Part shown: in pieces, positions 16,642 through 38,974 of the stretch
Numbering within the stretch: position 1 is the stretch's first letter
Layout of the letters: the number at the start of each line of letters is the position of its first letter
Assembly (NCBI GenBank): GCA_027493955.1
Contig: JAOSJT010000001.1
Span: 1,475,131 to 1,539,130 of the forward strand
DNA length: 64,000 nt
Direction of reading: 5' to 3'
DNA from: Bacteroidia bacterium
GTDB lineage: Bacteria; Bacteroidota; Ignavibacteria; SZUA-365
Notes under the pieces: generated by a model
Told to the model about the DNA's origin: nothing
Databases searched by the model: none
The model's input: only the letters and a program-made list of their open reading frames with translations
Program-made: the position numbers and the translations under genes

Positions 16642-17088
16642 TCACCTTGGCAATTGAGACGTTGTGACAGTTGACTGTATGCGTTCGAGAACCTGCGCGA
16701 GCGTTATGCCGCGCATCTCGTCTTCAATGCGTATTTGAATATCGGCGAACAGATCGAGAAACCAGGCATGCAGAAGACCGGCGTCGTTCTGTGTCGAAGC
16801 GTTCCCCTTGCCCACATCGAGGTGGAAGGCCTTCTCTGTTTCGACGGAGCAATAGACTTCCTGAAGATGGATCGCTCGGGCCGGTTTGGCGAGAAGAAAA
16901 CCGCCCGCACTTCCGCGCGTACTCCGGACGACACCCCCGCGGACGAGCATGGAAAGGATATTCCGTAAGCGCGAGGGATGCGTTCCCATACGACGCGAAA
17001 GCTCTTCACTGGAAAGCGAATGCTCTCCCGCCTCCGCGAGGAAGCAGAGAGCTTGAATGGCTGTGAAGAGTTTGGTAGAAGCAGACAT
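16642..17088 (-). CDS. Rrf2-family transcriptional regulator
   Basis: 148 residues. The winged helix-turn-helix is clear: LFTAIQALCFLAEAG, then LSSEELSRRMGTHPSRLRNILSMLVRGGVV, then STRGSAGGFLLAKP. The three-cysteine cluster that binds an iron-sulfur centre in IscR and NsrR is absent; only Cys15 and one Cys near residue 80 remain, so sensing through a cluster is unlikely. It sits 9 bases upstream of the aldehyde dehydrogenase gene, which it probably controls. A perfect palindrome 8 bases in front of its start codon is the likely self-operator. Confidence 0.92.
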   Translation of the reverse strand: MSASTKLFTAIQALCFLAEAGEHSLSSEELSRRMGTHPSRLRNILSMLVRGGVVRSTRGSAGGFLLAKPARAIHLQEVYCSVETEKAFHLDVGKGNASTQNDAGLLHAWFLDLFADIQIRIEDEMRGITLAQVLERIQSTVTTSQLPR

Positions 17089-17095
17089 GCGATAA

Positions 17096-17116
17096 TTGTT
17101 ACAGATCCTGTAACAA
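17096..17116. promoter_or_regulatory. Perfect palindrome, candidate Rrf2 operator
   Basis: TTGTTACAG and CTGTAACAA form a perfect 9-bp inverted repeat around a 3-base centre. It lies directly before the start codon of the Rrf2-family gene (start at 17088). Position and symmetry suit a homodimeric regulator that represses its own operon. Binding is inferred. Confidence 0.65.
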
Positions 17117-17220
17117 ATTTCGCAAATCCGGAGATGTCTGTCAAGGGGTCACAACGGGAAATCCGTCGGTGAGGTATCGCCAATCCGGTCTCTCGCGTGT
17201 CACGGAAGTGGATGCAACCC

Positions 17221-19911
17221 TTATATCGCAGCGGCGAGCAACTCTTCCATGGTTTTCAGAAGCATGGCGTGGTCCACCGGTTTCGCAAAATACCGGTTGC
17301 AGCCCGCGCTGAGGCAGCGCTCTCTGTCGGATCCGAATGCATGCGCGGTAACCGCAATCACAGGGACATGCGTATAGCGGGGAATGCGACGCATATCGCT
17401 CACAAAATCTAGACCGCTCTCCTCACCACCCAGAGAAACATCCGCGATGATGATGTTGATGTCCTTGCTCATGAGCGCATCATGCGCCTCAGCCACGCTC
17501 TCGGCGGTGAACACATTGTAGTGCTTCTTCAGTGTGATGCGCATGAACTGCCGGGTGTCGGCGTCATCTTCGACGACGAGCAAATTGGGAAGTTTTCGGT
17601 CTTCAGCAGAAAGAGGCAGAACCGGCGCGACGAAATGCCTTTTCTCGGGTAACACTCCGGATTCGGGTCGGGTCGTGGAAACGATAATGCGCTCCGGAAG
17701 CGTAAGGGTGAATATGGAACCAACGCCACGCGCACTCTTGATGGTGATACGTCCGCCAATCTGCTCCAGATACCGGCGTACCAGCGCGAGGCCCAGTCCG
17801 ACGCCTTCCAGCGCGTGGCCACTATCTCCGGTGTTGCCAAGCGATCCGAGAAACATCTTGTTCTGATATTCCTCGGAAATTCCGATGCCGGTATCTTCTA
17901 CATCGATGGCAATTTCCCCCGTGTCCCGCTGATAGAGCCGGACTTCAACATATCCCTTCCGGGTAAACTTGATGGCATTGTCGAGCAGACTTTCAATACT
18001 CTTGGCGAGGAAGCCCTCATCGGTGCGTACCCGCGCGTCGCCGATCTGATTGTCGAAGGACAGCGCGAGCGATTTCGTTTCGGAGAGCGTACGGGCATCG
18101 TTGACGCGGTCTTCGATCAGTCGTTTGAGGGAAATCTCCGTATCGTGAAATTCGATGGTTCCTGTCTGCAGCCGCGAGATATCCAGAATGATATCGATGG
18201 ATTTCGTTAGTTTGTCGGCGGACTCGAACACAAAGCTGAAATACTTGTCCTGTTCCTTGTTCATCGCAGGCCGTAGCTCGGAGGAAATATGTTTCAGATA
18301 GCCGATCATGATGTATAGCGGCGTCCGAATGCCATGCGAAATGTTTGCGATAAAGGCATCCTTGAGCTTATCGGCGGCTTCGACGGATTCCTTCGCGGCG
18401 ATCAATGATTGCTCGATTTTCTTTCGCTCGGAGATATCGCTCTTGATGGCGACGAAATGCGTAATATTCCCGAATTCATCCTTGACCGGCGTGATGGTCT
18501 GTTCCTCGATGTACTCGGTACCATCTTTCCGACGCGCGGGAAGTTCACCTTGCCACACGCGCCCGGCAAGCACCGTACGCCAGATCAAGGCACGCAGTTC
18601 GCTGTTTTCATTTCCGGGAGCGTCGATGTGCAGTGGTTTGCCGAGAGCTTCCAACTGCGTGTATCCGCTCATCTGCGAGAACGCGGCATTGACCCAGATG
18701 ATGGCGCCGGAGAGATCGGTAATGACGATGGCGTTGGCAGCAGCTTCCAGCGCGGTGCTCTGAAGATGCAATTGCGCTTCCGCTCGTTTCCGGTCTGTGA
18801 TCTCACGAACGATCGTCACGGTCTGGTCAATCCCACAGGGTGCGATACGGGCTTCAAAATACCGTATTCCGTGGGCAAATGGGATCGAGTATTCCTTGAG
18901 CTGTACTTCGCCCGTTTCGAGAGCCACCTTGAAGGGTTGCTCAAATTGCGCCATCAGACTCCAGGCGAACTGTTCACGTGTCATATCCGTCTGCAGCGTT
19001 CCAGGAGGAATCAAGAGCACAGGGTCCGGGGAGTACATTCCGCTGCCATCACGTAACAACATGAGGTCAGGCAAGGCACTCAGCACGGCACGCTGTCGTG
19101 ATTCGCTATCGCGCAATGCTTCTTCGACGCGCCTGCGTTCGTCGATCTCCTCGTTGAGTTCCTTCGTACGCTCGCCGACACGCTGTTCTAGTGTGAGATT
19201 CGCTTCTTCCAGTTCGTCGTACGCGTCTTTGAGGTTGCTTACCATTTGATTGAATGAAAAGGCAAGGTGACCAACCTCGTCCTGCGAAGAGACATGTGCG
19301 CGTTTCACGAAATCACCGCCGGCTATCTGTTCGACGGTCTGGACCATACTGCGCAATGGATTTGTGATCACCGTGGCCACACCGATCACCGTGAGCACAC
19401 CGATCAGGAAGATGATGAGACTGATCAGCGCAATGGAGGTCTGACTGCCAGCGACCTGCTCATCGATGATACGCGTCGAAAGCCCCAGGTACAGAGTCCC
19501 GATGCGCGTCTCCCCGTTCATCACTGCGACAGCGGATTTCGAGATGCCGCCCGTGGGCGAAAAACGGTCCAAGGTGCTGCTATAATCGGCCCTTTCAGCG
19601 ATATCTTGCCCGTGCGCGTACAGCAACCGGCCGTCATTGTCATAGAGCAGGAGATAGGACAGCAGTGTATCCTGCTTCGCGCTTTCGATGGCCAGGTCCA
19701 CAACTTCCTGCGATTTCAGCGTGGAATCCCGTCCAAAGATCAGCGCCGTGGAGCCGGCGAGCGCCTCAGACCGGGCGTGAAGACTTTCCTGCGCCTGTTC
19801 CTTCAACCGCGACGGAAAAAAGATGAATATGAAAATGGAAACCGTCCAGAACAGCAACGACACGACGGCGGTAAGCTTGACGCGAATGGAAAGGTTGGAA
19901 AAAAGCTTCAT
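17221..19911 (-). CDS. Hybrid sensor histidine kinase (HAMP, two PAS, receiver)
   Basis: 896 residues from ATG 19911; a GTG 21 bases upstream is possible. Domains in order: membrane helix at about 12-33, periplasmic sensor to about 165, second helix, HAMP (about 190-245, ending EVGHLAFSFNQMV), coiled coil, two PAS domains (about 290-510), kinase core, receiver. The phosphorylated His lies in ISHGIRTPL near residue 525, where the usual H-box reads SHELRTPL. ATP-binding boxes VEDTGIGIS and GVGLGLALV are intact. The receiver has the acceptor Asp in IIIADVSL near 822 and a conserved Lys in YFAKPVD. It follows the pilus cluster on the same strand, about 85 bases after the secretin gene, so a role in pilus or surface signalling is possible. 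Confidence 0.93.
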   Translation of the reverse strand: MKLFSNLSIRVKLTAVVSLLFWTVSIFIFIFFPSRLKEQAQESLHARSEALAGSTALIFGRDSTLKSQEVVDLAIESAKQDTLLSYLLLYDNDGRLLYAHGQDIAERADYSSTLDRFSPTGGISKSAVAVMNGETRIGTLYLGLSTRIIDEQVAGSQTSIALISLIIFLIGVLTVIGVATVITNPLRSMVQTVEQIAGGDFVKRAHVSSQDEVGHLAFSFNQMVSNLKDAYDELEEANLTLEQRVGERTKELNEEIDERRRVEEALRDSESRQRAVLSALPDLMLLRDGSGMYSPDPVLLIPPGTLQTDMTREQFAWSLMAQFEQPFKVALETGEVQLKEYSIPFAHGIRYFEARIAPCGIDQTVTIVREITDRKRAEAQLHLQSTALEAAANAIVITDLSGAIIWVNAAFSQMSGYTQLEALGKPLHIDAPGNENSELRALIWRTVLAGRVWQGELPARRKDGTEYIEEQTITPVKDEFGNITHFVAIKSDISERKKIEQSLIAAKESVEAADKLKDAFIANISHGIRTPLYIMIGYLKHISSELRPAMNKEQDKYFSFVFESADKLTKSIDIILDISRLQTGTIEFHDTEISLKRLIEDRVNDARTLSETKSLALSFDNQIGDARVRTDEGFLAKSIESLLDNAIKFTRKGYVEVRLYQRDTGEIAIDVEDTGIGISEEYQNKMFLGSLGNTGDSGHALEGVGLGLALVRRYLEQIGGRITIKSARGVGSIFTLTLPERIIVSTTRPESGVLPEKRHFVAPVLPLSAEDRKLPNLLVVEDDADTRQFMRITLKKHYNVFTAESVAEAHDALMSKDINIIIADVSLGGEESGLDFVSDMRRIPRYTHVPVIAVTAHAFGSDRERCLSAGCNRYFAKPVDHAMLLKTMEELLAAAI

Positions 19912-19996
19912 GCTGTGTCTCGATTCTGGCACACGATGATAGCACCCATCATACGCGGCGCGCTTCTGTGAAAGACTTCATCCATTTCAGCGGCGG

Positions 19997-21259
19997 TCAA
20001 CGATTTTGCCGGGCCAGTTCAATCTGGTTCAGCAAATTCTGGCGCAACGCCTCGAGCCTGTTGGCTTCATTCAACAGTGATTGCTGTCCGTTACGTATTT
20101 CGTTCATCCGTGTGGCGATACGTTTTTGCAGAGTTGGAACGATATTCGCTTTCAGGACAATGATCAATTCCTTTTTGTCAATGGTCGTTTCTTCATAGCC
20201 GAAGAGGTAGCGGAGGCCGAAGACCCACCACGGAAGATCCTTGAGAAAAGGGACGCCCCGTCGGATGTTTTTCGCCTCGTTCGAAACAAGACCGCCCACC
20301 ACTGTCTCTTCGCCGTCGATCAGCACGACGGATGTGGTTGCAAGAGTTTTGTTGATGATCGTGGAAACGACGTCCGGAAGGGCTGTGCTGCGTTCGGCGC
20401 TGATTTCGAGATTCACGAATTCAATGGAATCCTGTACGATGACGGTCGGTGTGACTTCAATGATCGTACCGGTGCTGAAAAATTTCTCCGTCGTGTTACC
20501 GGCGAAGTCCTTCTGTTTGATGGAAATATCCTGTCCTACCTGTATGCGGCCTTTCTCACCGGAGCGAACGGTGATGTTCGGGCTCGAGATCAATTCACCA
20601 AGATTTTCGGATTGGAACGCCTTCAATGCCGCGAGCAATTCGACAGTCCCATTTCCGATGGCAAGGGTAGTGATATTGCCTGTTTCGATTTCCGTTTCAC
20701 CTTCCCCGCCTCCATCGTCCGCCTCTTTGAAGGAGGTGGTCCCGGTTACGGAATTCAGTATACCCACAGATGTCGAAGGCGTGGAATTTGTCAGGAACCA
20801 GTCAAGACCCAGCCGTTCGAGTTCACTGCGATTGGCTTCGAAAAATACCGCGCTGATCTGTACCTCACGCGTCTGCAAGGCCTCGGCCGCCTTGACCATT
20901 TTCTCCTCGGACTTCGCCGCCTGCTTGGACAGTGCGTACACACGGGTGAAGTCCTCGGAGTCGATATACCAATGCGCAAGCGCTTTCAGAACCAGCTCGA
21001 AGGCATCGAACCAGTGCATGTTCACGATGTTGATGCCGATTTTGTCCTTGCTATCACCATCGTAGATGATGGGCTTGCTGCGGAAGCGTTTGCTTGCGGC
21101 GTTGAAGATCTCCACCGCCTGCGTAAATGTCGCTTCGGCATCGATGGAGATCAGTTCCTCCGGAGGAGTATATTCCCGCACCGGGAGTCGCTCCTGCGCT
21201 GCGGCATACGTTGCAGCGCAAAGGAGAAGCAGGACGATGAGAAAGTGGCGCATGTTCAT
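19997..21259 (-). CDS. pilQ: Type IV pilus secretin-like protein (PilQ/GspD family)
   Basis: 420 residues from ATG 21259, which has GAGG six bases upstream; an in-frame ATG at 21271 overlapping the previous stop (ATGA) is an alternative. Residues 1-21 are a signal peptide. An N-terminal secretin/STN-like domain is followed by the secretin core: REVQISAVFFEANRSELERLGLDW, LGELISSPNITVRSGEKGRIQVGQDI, and VLIDGEETVVGGLVSNE near the end. At 420 residues it is shorter than many PilQ proteins and lacks AMIN domains. It forms the outer-membrane pore for the pilus. The ending is a Leu/Asn/Gln-rich coiled coil. Confidence 0.88.
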   Translation of the reverse strand: MNMRHFLIVLLLLCAATYAAAQERLPVREYTPPEELISIDAEATFTQAVEIFNAASKRFRSKPIIYDGDSKDKIGINIVNMHWFDAFELVLKALAHWYIDSEDFTRVYALSKQAAKSEEKMVKAAEALQTREVQISAVFFEANRSELERLGLDWFLTNSTPSTSVGILNSVTGTTSFKEADDGGGEGETEIETGNITTLAIGNGTVELLAALKAFQSENLGELISSPNITVRSGEKGRIQVGQDISIKQKDFAGNTTEKFFSTGTIIEVTPTVIVQDSIEFVNLEISAERSTALPDVVSTIINKTLATTSVVLIDGEETVVGGLVSNEAKNIRRGVPFLKDLPWWVFGLRYLFGYEETTIDKKELIIVLKANIVPTLQKRIATRMNEIRNGQQSLLNEANRLEALRQNLLNQIELARQNR

Positions 21260-21267
21260 GGGAGACC

Positions 21268-22176
21268 TCATTTCCGTTTGGAACCGATGTTCTGTGGTTC
21301 GAGGCGAAGTGTGAGAATAAAGCGTTCTATCATGCCGCCTTTGTTGAGCAGGAAGAGCACCTGCCGCCTTTCGGGCATGATTTTGGAGACGTAACCGAGA
21401 TAGACTTCGTCGCCTTCGCTGAGCATGACGAGCTGATTGTTCTGGTCACTGATGAAGGCTTTACCCTTCATTATTGCCAGAAGCGTCGATTGCTCAACAT
21501 TGGGCAAATCAAACGTATTCGGTGGAATTTCCGGCGTAATAAGCGAGCGGAACGGATCGTGTCCGAAAGGAAGGAACGACGTCGAAGCGAGGGACAAGGT
21601 GGTGAGCGTATCGGCAAAGGGTTCCTGATTGGAATAATACGCGAACACGTCCACATCGAACTGGACGGTATGTTCAATGCGCCCCATGTCATCGTTCACT
21701 TTATGGACTTCGCGGATATCGAAATTGGCCAGCTTCATAAGTCTGGGGCCGTATTCCAGGTACTGGACCATGCGGCCGAAACTTGCAAACGGACCCTGCC
21801 CCGCAAGATGATAGCGAATGTAGCCGCAGCCGCTCTGTTCGACCTGCTCCTCGGTAAACACATTGAGATCCAGATCGGGAGTGTACATCAGGATATCGTT
21901 GAGATACTGATTTGTACGGCTGGCGATTTCCTCGCTCGGGAGTGTTTTCGGGCGCTGCCTCCAGGAGGCGTTGAGGAGTTCGACGCGTTCCTGGACCTCG
22001 AGCAGGCGGTCGAACAGTTCATCGGGATTTCCGAGCTGTTGCTGCAACGTGGCGCGCTCGGTCTGGAGCTCCTCCAGACGCGGTTCCTGTTCGAAATAGA
22101 TATACCCGAAGCCCGCCCCGGCTGCCAGAAGCAGTAACACCGCGAGAACAATACTATTGCGTATGGCGTATGGCAT
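21268..22176 (-). CDS. pilO: PilO-like inner-membrane assembly protein, possibly with a PilP-like end
   Basis: 302 residues. It has a single N-terminal membrane helix (about 8-28), then a coiled coil (LEELQTERATLQQQ) and the ferredoxin-like PilO domain containing YIRYHLAGQGPFASFGRMVQYLEYGPRLMKLANFDI split around residue 140. After about residue 225 comes a small beta domain (AIMKGKAFISDQNNQLVML, then EGDEVYLGYVSKI) resembling the single beta-domain of PilP, which contacts the secretin. No separate PilP gene is visible, so a PilO-PilP fusion is inferred. It starts 2 bases after the PilM-PilN gene and ends overlapping the longer secretin start. Confidence 0.75.
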   Translation of the reverse strand: MPYAIRNSIVLAVLLLLAAGAGFGYIYFEQEPRLEELQTERATLQQQLGNPDELFDRLLEVQERVELLNASWRQRPKTLPSEEIASRTNQYLNDILMYTPDLDLNVFTEEQVEQSGCGYIRYHLAGQGPFASFGRMVQYLEYGPRLMKLANFDIREVHKVNDDMGRIEHTVQFDVDVFAYYSNQEPFADTLTTLSLASTSFLPFGHDPFRSLITPEIPPNTFDLPNVEQSTLLAIMKGKAFISDQNNQLVMLSEGDEVYLGYVSKIMPERRQVLFLLNKGGMIERFILTLRLEPQNIGSKRK

Positions 22177-22178
22177 GG

Positions 22179-23822
22179 CTACTCTCCTTTCCCCTGGCTA
22201 TTCGTGGCCGGTGACGGAGCGGAGACCGGAATTTCGCCGATGGCGGTACGAACGGAGTCGTGCCACACCGCAGCGCGGGAGCCGGAATAGGGATACAGAC
22301 TATCGATTTTCAAACTCATGTCGTAACGGAAAACCTTTGCTTTCCCGATCTCCTGCACAGTGACCTCCCGAAGTCTGGTCAGGCCAATGCTGTTGGACAG
22401 TGAAGGAATGCCCGGCCTCTGCAGCGCGTATCCGACAACGGCAGTCCCGCCATCTTTTTCAAATTTCAGCTCACTCACCCATACATTCCCGAGGCGCGCG
22501 GTTGCCTGTGCCAACGTATCCAGCGTCTCCGACTAGGTTTCACTGCCGACGAGCAGGGTATCGAGCGTCAGCGTTGCTGTGCGGATTGCCTGGGATCGCG
22601 ATTCCAACTCGTTGATCTGATCAACGATTTGCTGTTGTTCGGCGAGCTGCTGTTTACTGAAACGCAGTTCTGAATCTATTGCGGAAATTTGATCCTGACG
22701 CTCGAGCACCATAATGGTCAGGATGGTGACCAGAACAAAAAGTCCCAACAATAAGACGACACCGTGCCACGCCAGCTTGAAGATTTTCTGATCCTGGAGA
22801 ATCTTCTGCGGCGTAATGTCGAGGCGATAGAAATGCTCATTCTTCGGCTGCAGGGCCTGCCATGCAAGTGAAACAGGCACTACGTAGCTGCTCATTTCCT
22901 GAAGGATGGCCTTGTCATCGGAGTGACCGATGCGAAGTCGGCGAAGTGAATGGAAGACGACCTGCGGGTTGTTCTCGAGAATTTCTTCCTTCAGTCCGAT
23001 CTCTTCCGCTTTGCCGCTCAAAACAACTCGGTCAGGGCTCACGTACCCTGCATTCTCCGCGGTCAGTTCAATACGATTGTACAGCGTTGAAACGAGATGC
23101 GCATCATGCGCGCCCTGCTGGATCGGCGGACCGATATACTCGATGTCATGGCCTCGCATCACGTAGAAATGCGTGACATCCTCATCGACATGAATCACAT
23201 GCAATAACTCGTTCGGCTTGGCCGGGAAGTGCACACGGACCATGTTTATGAGAGCGATGTCGTTGCTCGTAATGAACTCGATACGCGGCGAGCGCTTGTC
23301 CCCCCCTTGTGGTGACGAGCAGATTTCCACGAGCGGAGACTGGTCAACACTCGCTATCGTCAACGCATGCTTACTCCCGGCGCGTGTTTGCGCAATCGCC
23401 TGTTTCGGGAGTTGCATATTCAGGGTTTTGTTGATTTCCTCAACCACCCGGGCGCGAATCTTCGCGTTGGTGTCCTTTTTATCGGTTTGCAGGAGGATCG
23501 TTCGAACATGCGGATCTTCGAACGACATTGCGAAAGAAGCGCGCGGTTGATAGTGCGTTGCGATGAATTCCCGTATAGAGGAATAATCGATATTTTCCTC
23601 TGTATCGGCGTCACCTCCGCCGGCCCCCTGCTCAAAGGGATTGTCGTTCTTCGGCGCTTCCTCATCCATACTCCCTGTGAATTGCTTCACCGGCAGCGGC
23701 ATGGAAGCGAGATCCATGATGTTGAGCTTGAGTCCGATTCGGCCCACGACCGCGAGACGCAGCGTTGCGCCCTCGATCGAAATACCAATGCAGACTTTTT
23801 GCGGCCGTTTCTGTGTGCTCAT
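22179..23822 (-). pseudogene. PilM-PilN fusion gene with an in-frame amber codon
   Basis: One frame runs from 23822 to 22179 but is broken by TAG at 22533-22535. The first 429 codons hold a PilM-like actin-fold domain (about 10-340), a membrane helix (about 358-380) and a coiled coil ending LLVGSET. After the TAG the same frame continues for 117 codons (SETLDTLAQ, then LGNVWVSELKFE and VTVQEIGKAKVFRYDMSL), which match the globular end of PilN. The stop therefore cuts the PilN domain, not a domain boundary. A single base change would restore the frame. Either the gene is mutated, read-through occurs, the downstream part re-initiates (TTG at 22514), or the base is a sequencing error. Neighbours pilT and pilO look intact. 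Confidence 0.8.
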
Positions 23823-23840: not shown

Positions 23841-25160
23841 TTATGCAACCTGCTTGCTGATCAGCTGCTTGATGCGCTTCTTGTTATTCGCATGATTGAC
23901 GGCTTCGTCAATGCTGATGATTTTCTGCTGGTACAGGCGGAAAAGATCCTGCTCCATGGTGATCATCCCCAGCGCTCCACCTTCGGTGATCATCTGATAG
24001 ATTTCGCCGGTGTTTCCGTTCTTGATCGCGGCACGTACGGAAGGAGTCACGATCAGCACCTCCTTGGCCAGCGTTCTCTTTCGATCCACTGTCGGCACCA
24101 GCTTCTGGGAGACGACCAGTCGCAGCACGTCCGCAAGCCGGTTGCGCACCCGGTCCTGTTCCAGAGGTGGAACCTCACCGATGATGCGGTCTATGCTCTC
24201 AACGGCGGAGGACGTGTGCAAGGTAGAGAAGACCTTGTGACCGGAGTCGGTGATTTCCAACGCGGACATAATCGTCTCGGGATCGCGCATTTCGCCGATG
24301 ACCACGATGTCGGGATCCTGACGCAAGGCCTGTACCGTGCCGTCTTTGAAAGACAGCACATCTCTGCCGACTTCGCGATGCCGGATTACGGATCGTCCCG
24401 GGGTATGGACGTACTCGATCGGCGAGCCGATGATGATGATGTGCGAGTCAACGGAACTGTTATTGGCGTCAATAATCGCGTCGAGCGTCGTACTTTTCCC
24501 GGAGCCGGTAATACCGGTCACCAGGATCAGGCCCTCTTTGGTATGCTTGAGGTTGACGATGTTCGTGATATTCGGATGGAAATTGTATGTCGAGTACGGC
24601 CGTATTTTGGCGGTGATGGCGCGCATGTTCATGCCCACGGCATCGAGATCAAAGTACGCGGTGCCGCGATACCTGAACATTTCGCCATTGACGGTGGTCT
24701 GATAGGAGAAATCCAGGCTGCGCTGTTCCAGCAGAAGATTCCGTTGTCGCGGCAGCACCAGCGATTGGATCAACACATCGGCGAAGGGCGATTCGAGTCG
24801 CGGCAGCGCTGTTTGCGGCAGCTTGTTCCCATGCACACGAAACCAAATTTCCCCCCGCGTTCCGAAACTGCCGATGTCAATATCGGATGCTTCGACGGAG
24901 CGCATGTACTCAAGGACGCGCTCATAGAAATAGCGCAACACCTGGACGGCCTTGTCGTCGAGAGATTCGAGCTGTTTAGCGATGTATTCCTGTCGCTCCG
25001 TCCCGTAATAATGGCCGGGCATATCACGAACGACATACTCCATGACCTTCAGGGCATTGGAGATGACTTTTTCGGCTATGACGGGTTCCTCCCCTTTTCC
25101 GCGCACCGTATGCGCGGTATGGGTGATCCGTTGAGCAGTATCGACGCTGGCGTCATTCAT
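23841..25160 (-). CDS. pilT: Type IV pilus retraction ATPase PilT-like
   Basis: 439 residues, longer than a 350-residue PilT because of about 80 extra N-terminal residues. Walker A GITGSGKSTT is near residue 235, Walker B DPDIVVIGEMRDPET near 295, and the His box HKVFSTLHTSSAVESIDRI near 330. The Asp box, normally EDPIE, reads GSPIE here (HIIIIGSPIEYVH). The C-terminal segment EVLIVTPSVRAAIKNG-N matches PilT. PilT-type ATPases power pilus retraction and twitching. A TATATTCA site at 25253-25260 lies upstream, so this gene may start its own transcript. Confidence 0.92.
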   Translation of the reverse strand: MNDASVDTAQRITHTAHTVRGKGEEPVIAEKVISNALKVMEYVVRDMPGHYYGTERQEYIAKQLESLDDKAVQVLRYFYERVLEYMRSVEASDIDIGSFGTRGEIWFRVHGNKLPQTALPRLESPFADVLIQSLVLPRQRNLLLEQRSLDFSYQTTVNGEMFRYRGTAYFDLDAVGMNMRAITAKIRPYSTYNFHPNITNIVNLKHTKEGLILVTGITGSGKSTTLDAIIDANNSSVDSHIIIIGSPIEYVHTPGRSVIRHREVGRDVLSFKDGTVQALRQDPDIVVIGEMRDPETIMSALEITDSGHKVFSTLHTSSAVESIDRIIGEVPPLEQDRVRNRLADVLRLVVSQKLVPTVDRKRTLAKEVLIVTPSVRAAIKNGNTGEIYQMITEGGALGMITMEQDLFRLYQQKIISIDEAVNHANNKKRIKQLISKQVA

Positions 25161-25412: not shown

Positions 25413-26441
25413 TTACTCATAGTACTTGTAAATTTCCACAGCCAGAAGGCCGAGATTGCCGAGCACCGTACTGAGCGTCTGGTAGCTATACTTCACCGAG
25501 GGATTCCCGTTGACGTGCACGTTTGTCACCTTGCTGGGATCGGTATTACCAACCCACACCGTACCAAGAATGGACGGGGTTCCCGTACCGCCGAGTTCGA
25601 TTCGTACGTCACCCGAGAGCGCGAGGATGATTCCTTGCCATTTGACTCCACCCTTCATGATGAGTTGACCATCGACGACGAGGATACCTGCTCCCGTGAT
25701 CGTCCCTGTCCATTCGAGATCACCCGGGACATGGACAATTTCCGGCTTCGCCAGACTGCCGAAGGTAGAGTTGCTCGCATATTTTCCTGCGGGTAACAAG
25801 ATCGTTCTCCGCGCTTTATAGAAATTTTGCAGACTGATCAGATCAGTAGCCCCGAACTGACCGATGCTGGGCTGTCCGCCGGCACCCCATATTCTGTCCT
25901 CCACGCCATTGGTCGTCACCTGTTTTGTGACATCTCCTACGATCTTACTTGTCTGCACACCGATTCCATGAACAGCCGTCGAAGAGCCCATGGTCCCGTC
26001 AATATTCCAGTCGCGTCCGTCTATATCAAAGGCTGTTCCGCTGTTGGTAAAGGAGACGGAATCACCGAATACCGTCAGGGCGCTTTCCACATTGGGAAAT
26101 ATGGAACTCAATTTTGCTTCCACGAGGATGTTGTGCACGGCTCCGTTGATCAGTCCGCGGGACTGAATCCGTACCGAATCGATACCGATATCGGTCACGC
26201 GCACAGAGGTCGTGCCGCCCGCCACCCCTACACTCGTGAAACCCATGCGCCAATTTTTCTCACGACGCAGCCGGCTGACTGCCATATTGACCCCGCTGCG
26301 GGCGACGTTCAGGGCCTGCTCGCGTTCGAAGAGGGAGGCAGTGGTTTCGTTCGAGTAATCCCACATACCCATGAATCCCAACAGGGAAATGGAGAGGAGC
26401 AGGGTGGATAGCGCGACGATGATAAATGATTGCTGACCCAT
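25413..26441 (-). CDS. PilX-like pilus assembly protein
   Basis: 342 residues. A very short leader (MGQQS) is followed by one hydrophobic helix to about residue 27 and then the helical stretch ALNVARSGVNMAVSRLRRE, typical of the PilX/GspK-like start of large minor pilins. The remainder is beta-rich with Gly-rich turns (VPGDLEWTGTITGAGILVVDGQLIMKGG split around residue 255), a beta-solenoid-like pattern found in this type of protein. There is no basic leader or Glu5. It lies between the PilW-like gene (9 bases) and pilT and is predicted to take part in pilus tip or pilus initiation. Confidence 0.65.
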   Translation of the reverse strand: MGQQSFIIVALSTLLLSISLLGFMGMWDYSNETTASLFEREQALNVARSGVNMAVSRLRREKNWRMGFTSVGVAGGTTSVRVTDIGIDSVRIQSRGLINGAVHNILVEAKLSSIFPNVESALTVFGDSVSFTNSGTAFDIDGRDWNIDGTMGSSTAVHGIGVQTSKIVGDVTKQVTTNGVEDRIWGAGGQPSIGQFGATDLISLQNFYKARRTILLPAGKYASNSTFGSLAKPEIVHVPGDLEWTGTITGAGILVVDGQLIMKGGVKWQGIILALSGDVRIELGGTGTPSILGTVWVGNTDPSKVTNVHVNGNPSVKYSYQTLSTVLGNLGLLAVEIYKYYE

Positions 26442-26450
26442 TGCCGCCTC

Positions 26451-27017
26451 CTATTTCAGATTTTTCGGAGTGATGGTGAACTCGTTCTGCGAGTACTGAT
26501 ACCCGTCCTCCGAAGACATGGAACTCTTCAGGCGCATACCCACCGTAATCGCCTTGACATCGGCCGGAGCGGTGGTTTCGATGAGTTTCTTGTACGTCGG
26601 GTCAAGGCGATAGTACTTGAAGTACCCGCGAACGATTCCGAGGTCGGCGCCCTGCACCTTCCGCCCGTTCACGATACGGAAGAGAGGCAACTCGGCCGTA
26701 TTGGTCCAAACGGTATTGGGGCTGTAATCTCCAAAAGTATAGCTGATGGTATCGATCTTTCCATCGTTCCCGAGGTCGCAGCGGAAGGTGAAAATCCGAG
26801 CGGACGACTGCAGGATTTTCAGCGTATCACAGCCGAAACCGGCTTTCATGATATCATGCCGCAGCGTGCTGGTGACTTCGGTCACATCACCCTGCTGGAC
26901 GATTTTGTTGACGGATTCAACCTGCGAGTTTTGCCTCTCGCCCTGGAAAAAGGCGAAGTTCAGGATGATCATACCCGCGATGACCACCGAACCGATGATA
27001 TCCAGATGACTGCTCAT
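26451..27017 (-). CDS. Minor pilin-like protein (PilW-like position)
   Basis: 188 residues. A six-residue polar start (MSSHLD) precedes a hydrophobic helix (about 7-25), then a helical stretch (VNKIVQQGDVTEVTSTLRHDIMKAGFGCDT) and a beta-rich domain. TLRHDIMKAGFG resembles the LRxDIxxAGY pattern of PilW-type minor pilins. No canonical prepilin peptidase site (basic leader, G, F/M, TLxE) is present. It starts one base after the stop of the next minor pilin-like gene. Confidence 0.65.
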   Translation of the reverse strand: MSSHLDIIGSVVIAGMIILNFAFFQGERQNSQVESVNKIVQQGDVTEVTSTLRHDIMKAGFGCDTLKILQSSARIFTFRCDLGNDGKIDTISYTFGDYSPNTVWTNTAELPLFRIVNGRKVQGADLGIVRGYFKYYRLDPTYKKLIETTAPADVKAITVGMRLKSSMSSEDGYQYSQNEFTITPKNLK

Positions 27018-27018
27018 A

Positions 27019-27531
27019 TTAGTATGTGGCCAGGTATGACATACGGACTGTATCGGGAGAAAAGTCGTTTGTGATCACAAGATCCGCACGTTTGGAGAAC
27101 GTGTAGCCGGATACGGCGAGATTCGGATTTGATTCCGAGACGTAGCGTACCGATACCGCAACACGGTACCCCCAGGTTTCCCAGAGACACCTGGGTGTCG
27201 CCGTCGTGGGTGTGGTACCCGGCTGCGGGCTGCGGAACACCGATCCGTGAAAATCGTCGAAATCGTCGAAGTTGGGATAGACGCCGACGCCGGGACCACA
27301 GGATGTGAGATCCGAGGCCTGCCGTATCCACTTCCCACCCGCAATACTCGCGTCGAAGGGCCGCTGTGCCATTTCCTCGAACAACGAACGTCCTATAGCG
27401 ACGGCTTTCTGCGTGTACTCGTTACCGTCCAGCACATCTTCGTTCTGAAAATTCAGGGCACGAAAGTTGAGCATGACGGTACCGAGGAGCATAAATGCCC
27501 CTATCGTCAATGCCATTTGTCCGGAATTCAT
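27019..27531 (-). CDS. Minor pilin-like protein
   Basis: 170 residues. MNSGQ precedes a hydrophobic helix (about 6-24), then an amphipathic stretch (EYTQKAVAIGRSLFEEMAQRPFD) like the PilV-type ALxxAxxLxxxxxxxPFD pattern, and a beta-rich domain with two Cys that could pair. It lacks a canonical leader peptidase site. First of three consecutive pilin-like genes in transcription order; a TATATTCA site is found about 55 bases upstream. Confidence 0.65.
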   Translation of the reverse strand: MNSGQMALTIGAFMLLGTVMLNFRALNFQNEDVLDGNEYTQKAVAIGRSLFEEMAQRPFDASIAGGKWIRQASDLTSCGPGVGVYPNFDDFDDFHGSVFRSPQPGTTPTTATPRCLWETWGYRVAVSVRYVSESNPNLAVSGYTFSKRADLVITNDFSPDTVRMSYLATY

Positions 27532-27678: not shown

Positions 27679-29475
27679 TCAATCGTCGGACATGGTTGCG
27701 GCGATCACTTCGGCCACGGACGTCGTCCCCTCCTTGACGCGCTCACGCGCAGAGGCGCGCAGGGTGAGCATGCCTTCGGAGATGGCGATTTGACGCACCT
27801 TCTCCTCATCAATTTCCTCTCCGGAGTCGAAGATTGCCTGACGCACAGCCCGGGAGAAGAAGAGCGCTTCATGAATAGCGACCCGGCCCTTATAGCCCTT
27901 GACACAGGAGCTGCATCCGACCGCTTCGTAAAATGTCGTATTCCGGATTTCCTCTTCTGTAAAACCAACATTTTTCAATTCGGGGATGTTCAGATCCCGC
28001 ACTTCCCGCTTGCACTTGGGACACAAGCGCCGCATCAGACGCTGCGCCACCACGAGATTGATCGCATAGGCAATGAGGAAGGTTTCGATGCCCATCTTGA
28101 ACAGACGTGTGACCGCGCTGGGAGCGTCGTTGGTATGCAGCGTCGAGAAGGTGAGGTGACCGGTATTTGCCAGCTTGATCGCCACATCCGCCGTGGCCTT
28201 GTCGCGCATCTCGCCCACCATGACGATATCGGGATCGTGACGGAGTATGGCCCGAATCGCCGCTTCAAAATCGACCTTGTGGCTGATCTTGATCTGACGT
28301 GCACCGTCGATCACGTATTCGACCGGATCCTCGACGGTCAGGACGTTGACCTGCGGCGTGATGACAGAGTAGAGGGCCGCAACCAGCGTGGTACTCTTCC
28401 CGCTTCCTGTCGGACCGGTAAGGATGACCATGCCCTGTGGTTTGGAGATCGATGTTTTGAACCATTCCAGCGCTTTCGGTTGAAAACCGATTTTCGCGAT
28501 GTCCTTGATCACTTTGCGGCTGTCGAGAACACGTATGACGATGCTCTCGAATTTCATGGCAAATTCCGAACCGGCGATGGGCAGCACGGACACACGGAAG
28601 CGAATCACGGTATTGTCGATCGTACGCTGAATAAAACCGTCCTGCGCCGATTCGCGCTCGAAGCGGTCGATGTTCATCGAACGATCCTTGACCACAGCCA
28701 GAACAGCTTCGGGGCGCGTTCCGTCGACACGGTTCCACAGTTGCAGTTTTCCGTCGGAACGGAAGTGGAATTCCGTCGTCGTCAACGACGTCGGAAAAAT
28801 GTGAATATCGCTGACTCCCTGCCGTACCGCTTCGATGAGACACCCCTCGAAGAGGTTGACCAGCATGGACTTGTTGATCTCCGCATCGAGTTCCGCTTCG
28901 TCGATTCCCGATTCGGTATCAACCTCCTCCATTTCCCCTTCCATGTCCTTGAGACTTTCGAGGAAGATGTTGTCTCCTCGAAGGACATTGTCGAGATGGG
29001 GCTGCAGGCTGGGGAGATCCGCGTAATACACTTCATATTTGAGTGCACGGAACAGATTCGCGACACGCGGGATGTCCCTGTGGATTGGAATCGCCGAGAC
29101 CAGGATGAGCTTATCCGGTGTACGGCTGTCGAACTGCATCGGAAGAGTTTTCGACTTGAACAGCATCGCGCGCTGTTCCTGGTTCAGCGATTCGACCAGC
29201 TGTTTGATGACGTTGATCCGGCGTTCCGTCATGGCTTCGTCCACCTTCAGGGTCTTGAAGGCATAGATGCGCGCCACTTCCGAGAACACGGTGTGGTGAT
29301 CGAGCTTGAATTCCTCGACGAGAATCTCGGCGAGACTGCGGCTCTTGTTCCCGACTTCACGCTCCTTGGCGGTCAGGGCTTTGCTGATCGTTTCGCGATC
29401 GACGATGCCCTTATGCAGGAGCGCTACGCCGACTTTATCGACTTTGCGTTCCAGTAAGGAGGCTGCGGCATCCAT
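27679..29475 (-). CDS. pilB: Type IV pilus extension ATPase PilB/GspE-like
   Basis: 598 residues. The N-terminal GspE/MshEN-like domain begins near residue 13 (VGVALLHKGIVDRETISKAL). The ATPase core has Walker A TGPTGSGKSTT near residue 362, the Asp box TVEDPVEY, Walker B DPDIVMVGEMRD and the His box FSTLHTNDAPSAV. A zinc-binding CPKC with CSSC about 35 residues later is present, as in GspE/PilB. It drives pilus polymerisation from the cytoplasmic face together with PilC. The start has AAGGAA eight bases upstream and lies within the last 41 bases of pilC. Confidence 0.95.
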   Translation of the reverse strand: MDAAASLLERKVDKVGVALLHKGIVDRETISKALTAKEREVGNKSRSLAEILVEEFKLDHHTVFSEVARIYAFKTLKVDEAMTERRINVIKQLVESLNQEQRAMLFKSKTLPMQFDSRTPDKLILVSAIPIHRDIPRVANLFRALKYEVYYADLPSLQPHLDNVLRGDNIFLESLKDMEGEMEEVDTESGIDEAELDAEINKSMLVNLFEGCLIEAVRQGVSDIHIFPTSLTTTEFHFRSDGKLQLWNRVDGTRPEAVLAVVKDRSMNIDRFERESAQDGFIQRTIDNTVIRFRVSVLPIAGSEFAMKFESIVIRVLDSRKVIKDIAKIGFQPKALEWFKTSISKPQGMVILTGPTGSGKSTTLVAALYSVITPQVNVLTVEDPVEYVIDGARQIKISHKVDFEAAIRAILRHDPDIVMVGEMRDKATADVAIKLANTGHLTFSTLHTNDAPSAVTRLFKMGIETFLIAYAINLVVAQRLMRRLCPKCKREVRDLNIPELKNVGFTEEEIRNTTFYEAVGCSSCVKGYKGRVAIHEALFFSRAVRQAIFDSGEEIDEEKVRQIAISEGMLTLRASARERVKEGTTSVAEVIAATMSDD

Positions 29476-30886
29476 TGACGAAATTCCTTATTCTATCCTG
29501 AAATACGCCTCCCGCAGTGAACAGCAGCAGATAATCCGCAATGCTGCCCATGCCCGGTGCACTCTTGGGCTTGATGACGGCTGTTTCGGAGGAGACGATG
29601 GTAATGGCGGTCATGACGATCATGATGATCAGGGCCACCCAGAGTTGCATGAAATCCACCACGGACTTCAGTTTATAGGTCGTTTCGCGCTCGTAATAAT
29701 TCGCCAGCTGCAACGACGTTTCCCGCACCATACCCGTTTCCGCACCGGCGTGGAAACGCGAAAGCGCGGTTTTCGTAAATACCCCCGCCGCTTCAAAGGA
29801 CTCGTGCAGTCCCTTGCCGTGCTTGAGCATCATCGGGATGGTGATGGTTTTGATTTGATTTTCAAAGTAGGTATTACCCGTGGCTTCGGCGGCGGTTTTG
29901 ATGATGTCGATGTTCTCTCCTGAACCGCTGTACATGCTGTAGAACACGCGGCAGAAAACCTCTATGGCCGTCTTGTGAATCAGCGCACCCATTACGGGGA
30001 CGCGGAAGGATATTTTATCCACCCATTCCCTGCCCCGGGGATTTTTGATCAGTGCGAAGAGCCCCGCACCCATGGCGATGAGGAGCAGGATGAACCAATG
30101 GATATTTGCGACAAGCCAGTCCGACATCTCCAGCGTCGCTTCGGTCATCGGGGGCAATTCGATGCCGTACTTGAGAAACATGCGCGCTGTCTCGGGGAAG
30201 ATATAGGCCACGTAGAAAATCACGGCGATCACCAGCAGAACCAAGGTGATCATGGGCATGAGCATGGCGCTTTTCATGCTCTTCTTGAACTCCAGACGCC
30301 GCTCAAGGAATTTCGCGGTTGAGTCGTACATCTCGGCCATGGCACCGCTCTTCGATGCGAGGCCGAGCATTTTGGCCGTAAATTTTCCGAAAATATTTTC
30401 GTACTTCAGAAAGACCCGCTCGCTTTCGGCACCCTTCCGGAGATCCGCATTGATGTCCTTGAGCGTCTCCCGAAGCATCTTGTTGTCAATGTCATTCGAC
30501 AGAAGATTCAGAACTTCGTTAAAGGGAAGTTTTTCACGCAGCAAGTCTGCGCTCAAACGCACGAAGGTGATTACATCGGCAACCGGTGGTGTGCCGATAT
30601 TCAAACCGACTTTTTTACGGACAAAGACTACCTTGTAGCCCATACCCGTAAGCGCGGCCACGACCTCTTCTTTCGAAAAGGCCTTTTGCTCACCCTCGAG
30701 CACCTTTTCGCCTTTTTGCGCTTTGTACACGAAGGTCAGGCGTTTCTCCAGCTTGTCGAGCTTGAACGACCGGCCTTTGGAAAGGTCTTGTATCTTGCGC
30801 TTGGCTTCCGCCGCGTTACCGGCTGTGATCGTTCCCTGAACGATCTTTCCCGAAGGAACAACCCCCTGAAACCGAAAATCGGCCAT
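29435..30886 (-). CDS. pilC: Type IV pilus inner-membrane platform protein PilC
   Basis: 483 residues from ATG 30886, which has AGGAAG six bases upstream; a longer in-frame start at 30925 adds 13 residues without support. The N-terminus (ADFRFQGVVPSGKIVQGTI) is typical of PilC/GspF. Two repeats of the GspF domain follow, with FVRLSADLLREKLPFNEVL in the first and VFCRVFYSMYSGSGENIDII in the second, and three membrane helices (near 215, 265 and 440). It forms the platform engaged by PilB and PilT. The last 41 bases overlap the pilB start, in a different frame. Confidence 0.95.
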   Translation of the reverse strand: MADFRFQGVVPSGKIVQGTITAGNAAEAKRKIQDLSKGRSFKLDKLEKRLTFVYKAQKGEKVLEGEQKAFSKEEVVAALTGMGYKVVFVRKKVGLNIGTPPVADVITFVRLSADLLREKLPFNEVLNLLSNDIDNKMLRETLKDINADLRKGAESERVFLKYENIFGKFTAKMLGLASKSGAMAEMYDSTAKFLERRLEFKKSMKSAMLMPMITLVLLVIAVIFYVAYIFPETARMFLKYGIELPPMTEATLEMSDWLVANIHWFILLLIAMGAGLFALIKNPRGREWVDKISFRVPVMGALIHKTAIEVFCRVFYSMYSGSGENIDIIKTAAEATGNTYFENQIKTITIPMMLKHGKGLHESFEAAGVFTKTALSRFHAGAETGMVRETSLQLANYYERETTYKLKSVVDFMQLWVALIIMIVMTAITIVSSETAVIKPKSAPGMGSIADYLLLFTAGGVFQDRIRNFVNGCRSLLTGTQSR

Positions 30887-31100
30887 ATCGCACTTCCTTT
30901 TCTGTCCAGCTTCCTCAGTTTTCATGCCCTGCTTGAAGTTCCGCTTGGCAGGGATTCTCGCTCAACAAGTTAGCGTGGCAACCTTAACAGACACTTAATC
31001 GCACATTACAAGCATGAAAGGAAGATGCGGTGAGATATCGGCCTCTACTCCTGTCCTTCTGCTCCCTCTCTCACATCGCCCTGCGGAACGGCTTTACGAA

Positions 31101-31161: not shown

Positions 31162-31578
31162 CTACCAGTTTTGGTAATCCACAATCATGCGTTTTTCAGT
31201 GGTTGCTGTCATGTCAATGGATACCACGACCATACTTTTTGGATTGCGGAGAGAAGCGCCGGTCACCTCCAGGACGGCCTCCGCAGCTTTGGTGATCGTG
31301 TACTTCCCGTTGATGTTTTCGGTCTCGAGAGGTGAAGCGCCTTCATTCATGCCGAGGTGTGACATGTTGATGTTGTCGAAGCGGTTGTTGCCGCCTCCCA
31401 ACATGGATGGTTTCCGAAAATAGCCCTCCGCCGCCGAGACCATGCGCAAACAATCCTGGGTAATGGCGTCCTTGTTCGCCTCTTCACTGTTGCTTCCGAA
31501 AATATTCGTACCCACAACAATCGCGATGCCGACGACCACGACCCCCACCACTACAAGGAGAAGCTGTAACGTGCCCAT
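31162..31578 (-). CDS. Pilin-like protein, possible major pilin
   Basis: 138 residues. MGTLQ leads directly into a strongly hydrophobic helix (VVVGVVVVGIAIVVG, ending near residue 23), then a helical segment and a compact beta domain (NGKYTITKAAEAVLEVTG). Its size, own transcription unit with a strong terminator, and position at the head of the pilus cluster fit a major pilin. There is no basic leader, no Glu5 and no FTLIE motif, so processing by a standard prepilin peptidase is doubtful. GGAG lies nine bases before the ATG. Confidence 0.6.
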   Translation of the reverse strand: MGTLQLLLVVVGVVVVGIAIVVGTNIFGSNSEEANKDAITQDCLRMVSAAEGYFRKPSMLGGGNNRFDNINMSHLGMNEGASPLETENINGKYTITKAAEAVLEVTGASLRNPKSMVVVSIDMTATTEKRMIVDYQNW

Positions 31579-36098: not shown

Positions 36099-36133
36099 GT
36101 GCAACAAACAGAGTGCGTGGGCCGACTGCGCGG

Positions 36134-38974
36134 TCAGGAACCCTTTTGTTCCGGAAGCAGGACAACCTGAACGTACCGTTCGAGGTTGATGTATTTTTTT
36201 GCGGCGTCAAGGATATGCTGCGCGGTGAGACCGTCGATCATTTTTTCGTACTGCATGAACTGATTCAGCGGCTCGCCGAGCGATATGGCGCGCATGAGCT
36301 GCCCCATCCAGAAGCCGTTTTCTTTCATGCCCGTTTCACGTTCCCGGCGCTGAATTTCCTTGATCTTCCCGATATTCTCCTCGGATGCAGGATTTTCGAC
36401 AACGTCCTTCAGGACCTTGCGCATGGTTTCGATCATTTCGTCCACACGATCGGGACTGGTGCCGAAGTTGATCATGATGGCGTACTCGGCGTCCGGATAT
36501 TTGTCCGCGTTAGCGTTCACACCCACACCGTAGCTGCCGCCTTTATCCTCGCGAATCGCTTCCCGGAGCTGTATCGTGAGATACTCTTCCAGAGCGGAAA
36601 AGGCGTAACGATTTTCGTACGTCCACTCGAAAGGCCCCGTCATCACGAAGGCAATCATGGTTTTATCATCCACGCCTTTCCGCACGATCTTTTCAACCTT
36701 CCCGGTGGGCGGCTTGACGTTGTGATTCTTCCATGTTTCCTTGCGTCCGGTGGTCGGAAGCTGACCGATGTACTTTTCGACCATCGGCTTGAGTTCTTCC
36801 GGCTTGATGTTTCCGACAAACGTGAAGGTGAAATCGCTGGCATCACGGAAGCGATCGGAATAGATGTCGAAAGCCTTGTCCAGATCGACGCGCTCCAGCC
36901 ATGCTTTGGTAACGGGCTGCTGCCGCGGGTGATAATTCGCGAGCGTTGTGGTGAGCGTATCCGAGAACACGCGCTCCGGCTGATTGCCGAAATTCTCGAA
37001 CATGGACATCATGCGTGTCTTGAAGGAATTGAACGATGTGGTGTCTTTACGCGGCTGATGGAAATACAGATAGAGTAACTGGAATGCGGTTTCCATGTCC
37101 TTGGGAGCGAAGCTGCCGTTGAAACCCTCATTTTCCGAGCTGATAGTCGGGGAGACGTTGGCGACTTTCCCGGCCAACGTCTTACGCAGCTGAATCTGAT
37201 TGAATTCGCCCACACCTCCCATGCTGATGATGCTGGATGCGAGCGCGGCACTGGGCAGATCCGTGTCGCCCACGAGGGAGATACCACCGGGACTGGTCGC
37301 ACCGAACAGGACTTCGTCGGCCTTGAAATCCGTCTGCTTGACGAAGACCTTGATACCGTTGGAGAGCGTCCATTCCGTGACGTCGATGTCCTCGTGCTTT
37401 TTCTCCGAGGCAACACGCACCTTTGACGGACCCAATTCGACTAACGGTTTGTTCGCGACTTCGTCCACGTAGGGATCGAGTTTCATGGCTTCCACACGCT
37501 CTATCACTGCACGGAGCTGCTGCTCCGTCGGAGGCGTGAGTCCCTCTTTTTCCGGCATGCTGAACGTGATCACGCGATTCGCATCGGTGAAATATTCATC
37601 CGTCAGTTTATTGACTTCGCGGAGGGTAATGGTCTCAAGATATTTCTTGTACAGTTCGTACTCCATCTCGATACCGGGGATGGGCTCTTCGACAAGGAAA
37701 TTGCGAACGAACTCGGATGCATGCGATCCGGATTGCGTTTTCTCGCGTTCGTTGTACTGCCGTTCCATGCCGCGAAGCACATTGGTTTTCGCGCGTTCGA
37801 GTTCGGAGGCGGTGAAGCCGTGCTGTTTGACGCGATACGCCTCTTTGAGCAGCGCCTCGAAGCCGCGCTCCACGTCGCCTTCCTTCGGAATCGCGTTCAG
37901 GACAACGACCTCGCGGGCGCGCACGAAGCCGCCTTTCCCGGCGGAGGCGGATACGAAGGGCGGATTGTTCTGTTGCAGCAATTCACTGTAGCGGTCGTTG
38001 AGCATCCTGCTGAAAAGCCGTTCAGCCATGGAGGCACGGAAGTCCTTGACTTTCCGCTCCACCTTCGGCTCATGTTTGAAATACAGGGCAACCGACGACG
38101 ATGTCGCTTCGGGATCCGATGCGATGGTGCAGAGCAATTCCGCATGATCCGGAACAGGCTCCGTTGGCCGAACGAGCGCCTCGGCGGGTTTCGGGATCGA
38201 TCCGAACATCGCGGAGATTTTCTTTTCCATCGTCGCAACATCAAAATCACCGACCGCGACAATGGCCATCAGGTCGGGACGATACCACTTGCGGTAAAAA
38301 CCCTTCAGTGTTTCGTACTCGAAGCTCTTCAGAATATCGGGCTTGCCAATCGGAAGACGATCTGCGTACTTCGAGCCATGGAGCAGCACGGGAAATTGTA
38401 TATCGCGGATGCGCGACGAGGCACCCTTCCGGGCGCGCCATTCCTCTATGATGACGCCGCGCTCCTTGTCGATCTCTTCGTCGTCGAAGGTCACATTGCT
38501 CGCCCAATCCACAAGGACCTGCATACCCTGGGTGATGATGGTTTCGTCGTCCATCGGTATCTCCAGCATATACACGGTTTCATCGAAGCTGGTGTAGGCG
38601 TTGAGGTCGGCGCCGAAGCGCATGCCGATGCCCTCGAGATATTCCACGAGCTTGTTTTTAGGGAAATGCTTCGTGCCGTTGAAACACATGTGCTCCACGA
38701 AATGCGCGAGGCCCTGTTCGGGATCGGTCTCCAGAACAGATCCGGCGTTCACAGCCAGGCGCAGAGCGGCGCGGTTTTCCGGCTTCTTGTTCTGCATGAT
38801 GTAGTAGCGCATGCCGTTGGCGAGCGTACCGATTTTCACGTTGGGATTGACGGGGATGTCGGCGCCGAGGCCGGGAACAGGTGCCTTGCCAGGAGTCTCC
38901 TGGGCGAACGCACCCGGGAGAGCGAATATCGTCATGAACACAGCGACGACACTCGTGAGACGGAATACTTTCAT
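36134..38974 (-). CDS. M16 family zinc metallopeptidase (insulinase-like)
   Basis: 946 residues with a signal peptide (1-24, ending AFAQ). The N-terminal half is catalytic: the inverted zinc motif HFVEH near residue 87 and the distal Glu in EIDKERGVIIEEW about 80 residues later. The C-terminal half is a second M16 domain lacking the zinc motif and carries the substrate-binding R/Y pair region. The size equals two fused subunits, as in pitrilysin-type enzymes. It should degrade peptides in the periplasm. GGAG lies seven bases before the ATG, and CGTATCTTAA at 39015-39024 is a candidate promoter element. Confidence 0.95.
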   Translation of the reverse strand: MKVFRLTSVVAVFMTIFALPGAFAQETPGKAPVPGLGADIPVNPNVKIGTLANGMRYYIMQNKKPENRAALRLAVNAGSVLETDPEQGLAHFVEHMCFNGTKHFPKNKLVEYLEGIGMRFGADLNAYTSFDETVYMLEIPMDDETIITQGMQVLVDWASNVTFDDEEIDKERGVIIEEWRARKGASSRIRDIQFPVLLHGSKYADRLPIGKPDILKSFEYETLKGFYRKWYRPDLMAIVAVGDFDVATMEKKISAMFGSIPKPAEALVRPTEPVPDHAELLCTIASDPEATSSSVALYFKHEPKVERKVKDFRASMAERLFSRMLNDRYSELLQQNNPPFVSASAGKGGFVRAREVVVLNAIPKEGDVERGFEALLKEAYRVKQHGFTASELERAKTNVLRGMERQYNEREKTQSGSHASEFVRNFLVEEPIPGIEMEYELYKKYLETITLREVNKLTDEYFTDANRVITFSMPEKEGLTPPTEQQLRAVIERVEAMKLDPYVDEVANKPLVELGPSKVRVASEKKHEDIDVTEWTLSNGIKVFVKQTDFKADEVLFGATSPGGISLVGDTDLPSAALASSIISMGGVGEFNQIQLRKTLAGKVANVSPTISSENEGFNGSFAPKDMETAFQLLYLYFHQPRKDTTSFNSFKTRMMSMFENFGNQPERVFSDTLTTTLANYHPRQQPVTKAWLERVDLDKAFDIYSDRFRDASDFTFTFVGNIKPEELKPMVEKYIGQLPTTGRKETWKNHNVKPPTGKVEKIVRKGVDDKTMIAFVMTGPFEWTYENRYAFSALEEYLTIQLREAIREDKGGSYGVGVNANADKYPDAEYAIMINFGTSPDRVDEMIETMRKVLKDVVENPASEENIGKIKEIQRRERETGMKENGFWMGQLMRAISLGEPLNQFMQYEKMIDGLTAQHILDAAKKYINLERYVQVVLLPEQKGS

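Follow-up and report, generated by a model that had tools for sequence, protein, structure and literature searches.

A premature amber codon, probably a recent nonsense mutation, in the single pilM-pilN fusion gene of an Ignavibacteria-like bacterium

The genome of an environmental Ignavibacteria-like bacterium, a single contig of 5.24 Mb, contains one copy of pilMN, and this copy is interrupted by an in-frame amber codon. We consider it likely that this codon arose by a recent nonsense mutation, by which the protein loses its periplasmic PilN domain and the cell probably its piliation. The gene lies in the analysed window, a stretch of 64,000 nucleotides, where the frame 23822..22179 on the minus strand consists of 547 codons and is open except for one internal TAG at 22535..22533 (CTA at 22533-22535 on the plus strand), preceded in the translation by TLDTLLVGSET and followed by SETLDTLAQ. 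Minus-strand translation of 22179-23822 confirms the preliminary description of this locus, in which a TAG was placed after LLVGSET with the frame continuing into SETLDTLAQ. The natural terminator of the gene, at 22181..22179 directly before pilO, is also a TAG.

The part of the gene upstream of the internal TAG (429 amino acids) encompasses a putative PilM-like cytoplasmic domain, a transmembrane helix at approximately residues 350-375, and the PilN coiled coil, and is 62-66% identical to the corresponding region of five relative loci. The downstream part (117 amino acids) corresponds to the periplasmic ferredoxin-like part of PilN and would be left untranslated if the amber codon terminates; it is still recognisable after the stop, with 57-63% identity to the same five loci, in agreement with the PilN-like end originally noticed there. 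Because both parts match the same unbroken gene of the relatives, the lesion lies within one gene and does not separate two chance ORFs (Table 1).

Table 1. Position of the amber codon, the parts of the interrupted gene and the surrounding pilus genes (coordinates of the window).
Feature	Position	Strand	Evidence and remarks
secretin, pilQ-like, intact	19997..21271	-	Pfam Secretin, E 3e-28
pilO, intact	21268..22176	-	Pfam PilO, E 5e-5; 71-75% identity to relatives, full length
pilM-pilN, downstream part	22179..22532	-	in-frame continuation, 117 codons and natural stop TAG
putative TTG restart codon	22512..22514	-	GGAG 12 nt upstream, poor spacing
premature amber TAG	22533..22535	-	Trp, Tyr or Phe in relatives
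pilM-pilN, upstream part	22533..23822	-	ORF, 429 aa, ends at premature TAG
retraction ATPase, pilT-like, intact	23841..25160	-	TIGR01420 pilT_fam, 311.7 bits (cut-off 319.1); ~80% identity to relatives
three minor-pilin or pilus-accessory genes, intact	25413..27531	-	full-length matches, same order in relatives
pilB, intact	27679-29475	-	profile matches and match to relatives
pilC, intact	29435-30925	-	profile matches and match to relatives

Among 60 related genomes that were searched, 39 contain a matching gene, and no internal stop was found in the pilM-pilN matches listed. The site itself was compared across 28 aligned relatives from the same class, of which the named ones are metagenome genomes carrying the label Ignavibacteria or Bacteroidetes bacterium; one further genome (G014), whose copy is fragmented, with parts on different contigs or at their ends, was left out. 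In the column of the amber codon, 25 of the 28 sequences have tryptophan, in all cases encoded by TGG, two have tyrosine (TAC) and one has phenylalanine (TTC); none has TAG, and all are unbroken at this point. The nine nearest relatives (63-68% identity) invariably have TGG. The position is accordingly a conserved aromatic one in the class, and TAG differs from TGG, which, judging from the relatives, was presumably the state just before the change, by one G-to-A transition on the coding strand. Two clearly separate genes at this point in relatives, which the preliminary description had named as a refuting finding, were not seen; the gene is single and uninterrupted in every relative. The absence of the stop from every intact relative suggests that this is most likely an ordinary recent loss of function or, less likely, a sequencing error, rather than a case of special decoding.

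The presence of PilB, PilT, PilC, PilO and a secretin in one conserved cluster identifies the surrounding genes as a type IVa pilus operon, an assignment made at the family level because the scores are below the NCBIfam equivalog cut-offs; for the secretin, the best match is TIGR02515 (PilQ), also below the cut-off. The order pilC, pilB, three minor-pilin-like genes, pilT, pilMN, pilO and secretin is the same in one relative, in which a hybrid histidine kinase and an Rrf2-like regulator complete the shared order after the secretin. These two genes, which directly follow the pilus operon in the window (16642-19932), again in the same order in relatives, are possibly pilus regulators. The only broken gene of the operon is pilMN; the window copies of all the others are intact and match those of the relatives, so that the early impression of otherwise intact pilus genes is borne out. 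A strong AAAGGAG ribosome site precedes pilO. The window also contains, at 31162-31578, a pilin-like gene encoding a protein that has a hydrophobic stretch right at its start (MGTLQLLLVVVGVVVVGIAIV). A second pilin-like copy, 59% identical to it, is located at genome positions 1310874-1311287 (L175); before pilC, the pilin-like gene is present as a tandem pair in two related genomes and once in this genome.

The fusion of PilM and PilN, which had initially been taken for uncommon, was found in all 28 aligned relatives and, as far as can be judged from sequence, is the standard form across the sampled bacterial class. Its counterpart in the type II secretion system is GspL, which joins a cytoplasmic domain resembling PilM, a membrane helix and a periplasmic domain resembling PilN in one protein (PMC4471445, PMC3724824). 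The window gene is proposed to encode the same elements in one chain; unlike GspL, it belongs to a type IV pilus operon together with PilT, PilO and a PilQ-like secretin, and no direct sequence match to GspL was found. In NCBIfam, the sole match of the fusion protein is NF045709 (Amuc_1101 type, named PilM-like pilus complex protein), which covers residues 261-454 with an E value of 3e-6 and 26 bits against a cut-off of 650, making the window protein at most a distant relative and not a member; the PilM part was assigned from this weak match and the operon context. A Pfam search with the window protein alone yielded no real match. Within the family, Pfam PilN was matched in 5 of 27 members, and the profile of the 27 members matches Myxococcus xanthus PilN (3jc8; E 4.5e-7) over the membrane helix, the coiled coil and the start of the periplasmic domain. 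The M. xanthus PilN is a separate, unfused protein, and the tryptophan of the class is not conserved in it. An AlphaFold model of the fusion built from four sequences was poor (pLDDT 38.7).

The undecayed sequence after the stop and the intact rest of the operon would also be expected if the TAG were tolerated, with read-through yielding enough full-length protein for piliation. Several lines of evidence, however, render such read-through very unlikely. We searched for tRNAs with the Rfam tRNA model on the whole genome, with ARAGORN on loci and with a pattern for the CTA anticodon. None of the 47 tRNA matches above the Rfam cut-off in the whole genome reads UAG, and none of the six hits of the pattern search is a suppressor: two lie inside known tRNAs (Arg TCT and Glu), and the other four coincide with none of the tRNAs detected. 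The check for suppressor tRNA genes that had been proposed therefore ended with no CTA-anticodon tRNA found in the genome. Release factor 1 is intact (prfA, 510.7 bits, above the cut-off), TAG is a normal stop, including at the end of this very gene, no stable RNA fold follows the internal TAG (the sequence folds no better than shuffles; z +1.63), and TAG is absent from every aligned relative. That read-through at the conserved tryptophan position restricts how much full-length PilM-PilN is made, and hence piliation, in this one lineage appears extremely improbable. As a separate observation, a tRNA-like sequence whose D arm is truncated and whose anticodon loop is TTCACAC (CAC, Val) was detected at L082:11114-11180 (genome ~36113-36179, minus strand); missed by ARAGORN, it lies ~4 kb from an intact tRNA-Val(CAC).

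That TAG has been reassigned to a sense codon, throughout the genome or in part, has a practically negligible probability. The one observation that points in this direction is a second broken gene, a copy of Fe/Mn superoxide dismutase located 27 kb before the window (L112:12782-13411; genome ~1447.9-1448.5 kb, minus strand), which contains two TAG stops, one of them at a Trp codon. This copy, however, is plainly decayed, with two frameshifts, and since two intact superoxide dismutase genes exist elsewhere in the genome, it is an old dispensable duplicate. Furthermore, TAG terminates 17 of 106 well-covered orthologous genes (TGA terminates 63 and TAA 26), release factor 1 is retained, a cognate tRNA is missing from the set found, and apart from the decayed superoxide dismutase copy, no internal TAG was found in any other intact orthologue of a 124-gene sample.

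Another possibility is that the downstream part restarts at the TTG, 18 nt past the stop, and supplies, as a protein of its own, the piece that the pilus machine would otherwise lack. A GGAG motif does precede this TTG, at a spacing that is poor for a ribosome site. The predicted product of 111 amino acids would contain neither a membrane helix nor a signal, given that the helix and the coiled coil precede the stop. From the topology, the fragment would be cytoplasmic and so could not replace the PilN domain, which must be periplasmic. Moreover, no relative is split. Split translation is thus highly improbable, and functional read-through and restart, even taken together, are quite unlikely.

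If the amber codon terminates, the state of the sequence beyond it bears on the age of the lesion. In a test of constraint on a fixed tree of 15 sequences with 25 bootstrap pairs, the share of the tree taken by the window branch was 0.039 after the stop, compared to 0.058 for the PilM part and 0.11 for the membrane-coil part, and the downstream share was the smaller one in 23 of the 25 pairs. There is thus no sign of relaxed constraint after the stop in this set and no extra divergence, and the smaller branch share there than before the stop argues against long neutral decay. Together with the intact state of the other operon genes, this implies that the lesion is either recent or an error; the alternative, that the downstream part is still made, is unlikely.

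A base-calling or assembly error, in which case the true genome would have a sense codon like the relatives and an intact gene, fits the lack of decay and the intact, conserved surroundings of the site equally well. The inferred original context on the coding strand, ACC TGG, moreover contains CCTGG, a Dcm-type methylation motif at which uncorrected long reads can err. Deamination at methylated CCWGG, for its part, accounts for amber hotspots in lacI of Escherichia coli. If CCWGG is methylated in this genome, true deamination and long-read base-call error would both be favoured, which we offer as a suggestion. The genome does encode a C5 methyltransferase (TIGR00675, above the cut-off), the only C5 cytosine methyltransferase found in it (L172:655-2352, genome ~5107 kb; 565 amino acids). 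However, this enzyme is not of the E. coli Dcm type (NF007772, 53.6 bits against a cut-off of 710) and CCWGG is not depleted (0.96 of the expected frequency), so that methylation of the motif is unproven; CCTGG, besides, holds 15% of the Trp codons anyway (72 of 468). In a 1.24 Mb sample of the genome, CTAG is strongly avoided (0.31 of expectation) and GATC mildly so (0.82).

The quality of the consensus was gauged from broken genes in approximately 1.24 Mb of stretches that include 124 orthologue-like genes (45,265 amino acids); they were compared with genes of relatives that codon usage marked as true genes. Two broken genes were identified, pilMN and the superoxide dismutase copy, which indicates that isolated lesions are rare in this genome and that real pseudogenes occur. 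Four other flagged loci proved not to be lesions: an antisense frame of a gene for 713 amino acids (L113), stops beyond natural gene ends (L134 and L118), and an ORF of a relative extending into a tRNA gene (L073). No isolated frameshift of the kind typical of a poor consensus was found in the 124 genes, so that the consensus looks clean. Because the compared sequence lacks typical consensus errors, a real recent mutation is favoured, and an error, which retains a modest chance, is the less likely reading. Among the four options offered in the preliminary description, a recent loss of piliation thus fits best, a sequencing error is less likely, and read-through and split translation have found no support.

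Under the favoured explanation, a recent nonsense mutation, a Trp codon in the genome's single pilM-pilN fusion gene would have been converted to amber by one G-to-A change on the coding strand, and translation would stop after residue 429. The truncated protein would retain everything from the cytoplasmic PilM domain through the membrane helix to the coiled coil, but would be devoid of the ferredoxin-like domain of PilN in the periplasm. PilN is an interaction partner of PilO in other type IV pilus systems, where piliation depends on the PilMNO complex (PMC4471445), and the pilus machine is therefore expected to be non-functional. We infer that the base is real, the mutation recent and piliation lost. 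As with ordinary nonsense mutations in type IV pilus genes, this is one base change in an otherwise intact single-copy gene, and compared with these, nothing unusual is seen in the window gene. The general significance of the case is small, apart from the documentation of the PilM-PilN fusion as the standard form in the class. It does illustrate that a single base can suffice to switch off a complete-looking pilus operon, and the presence of the pilus genes in this genome therefore does not prove piliation.
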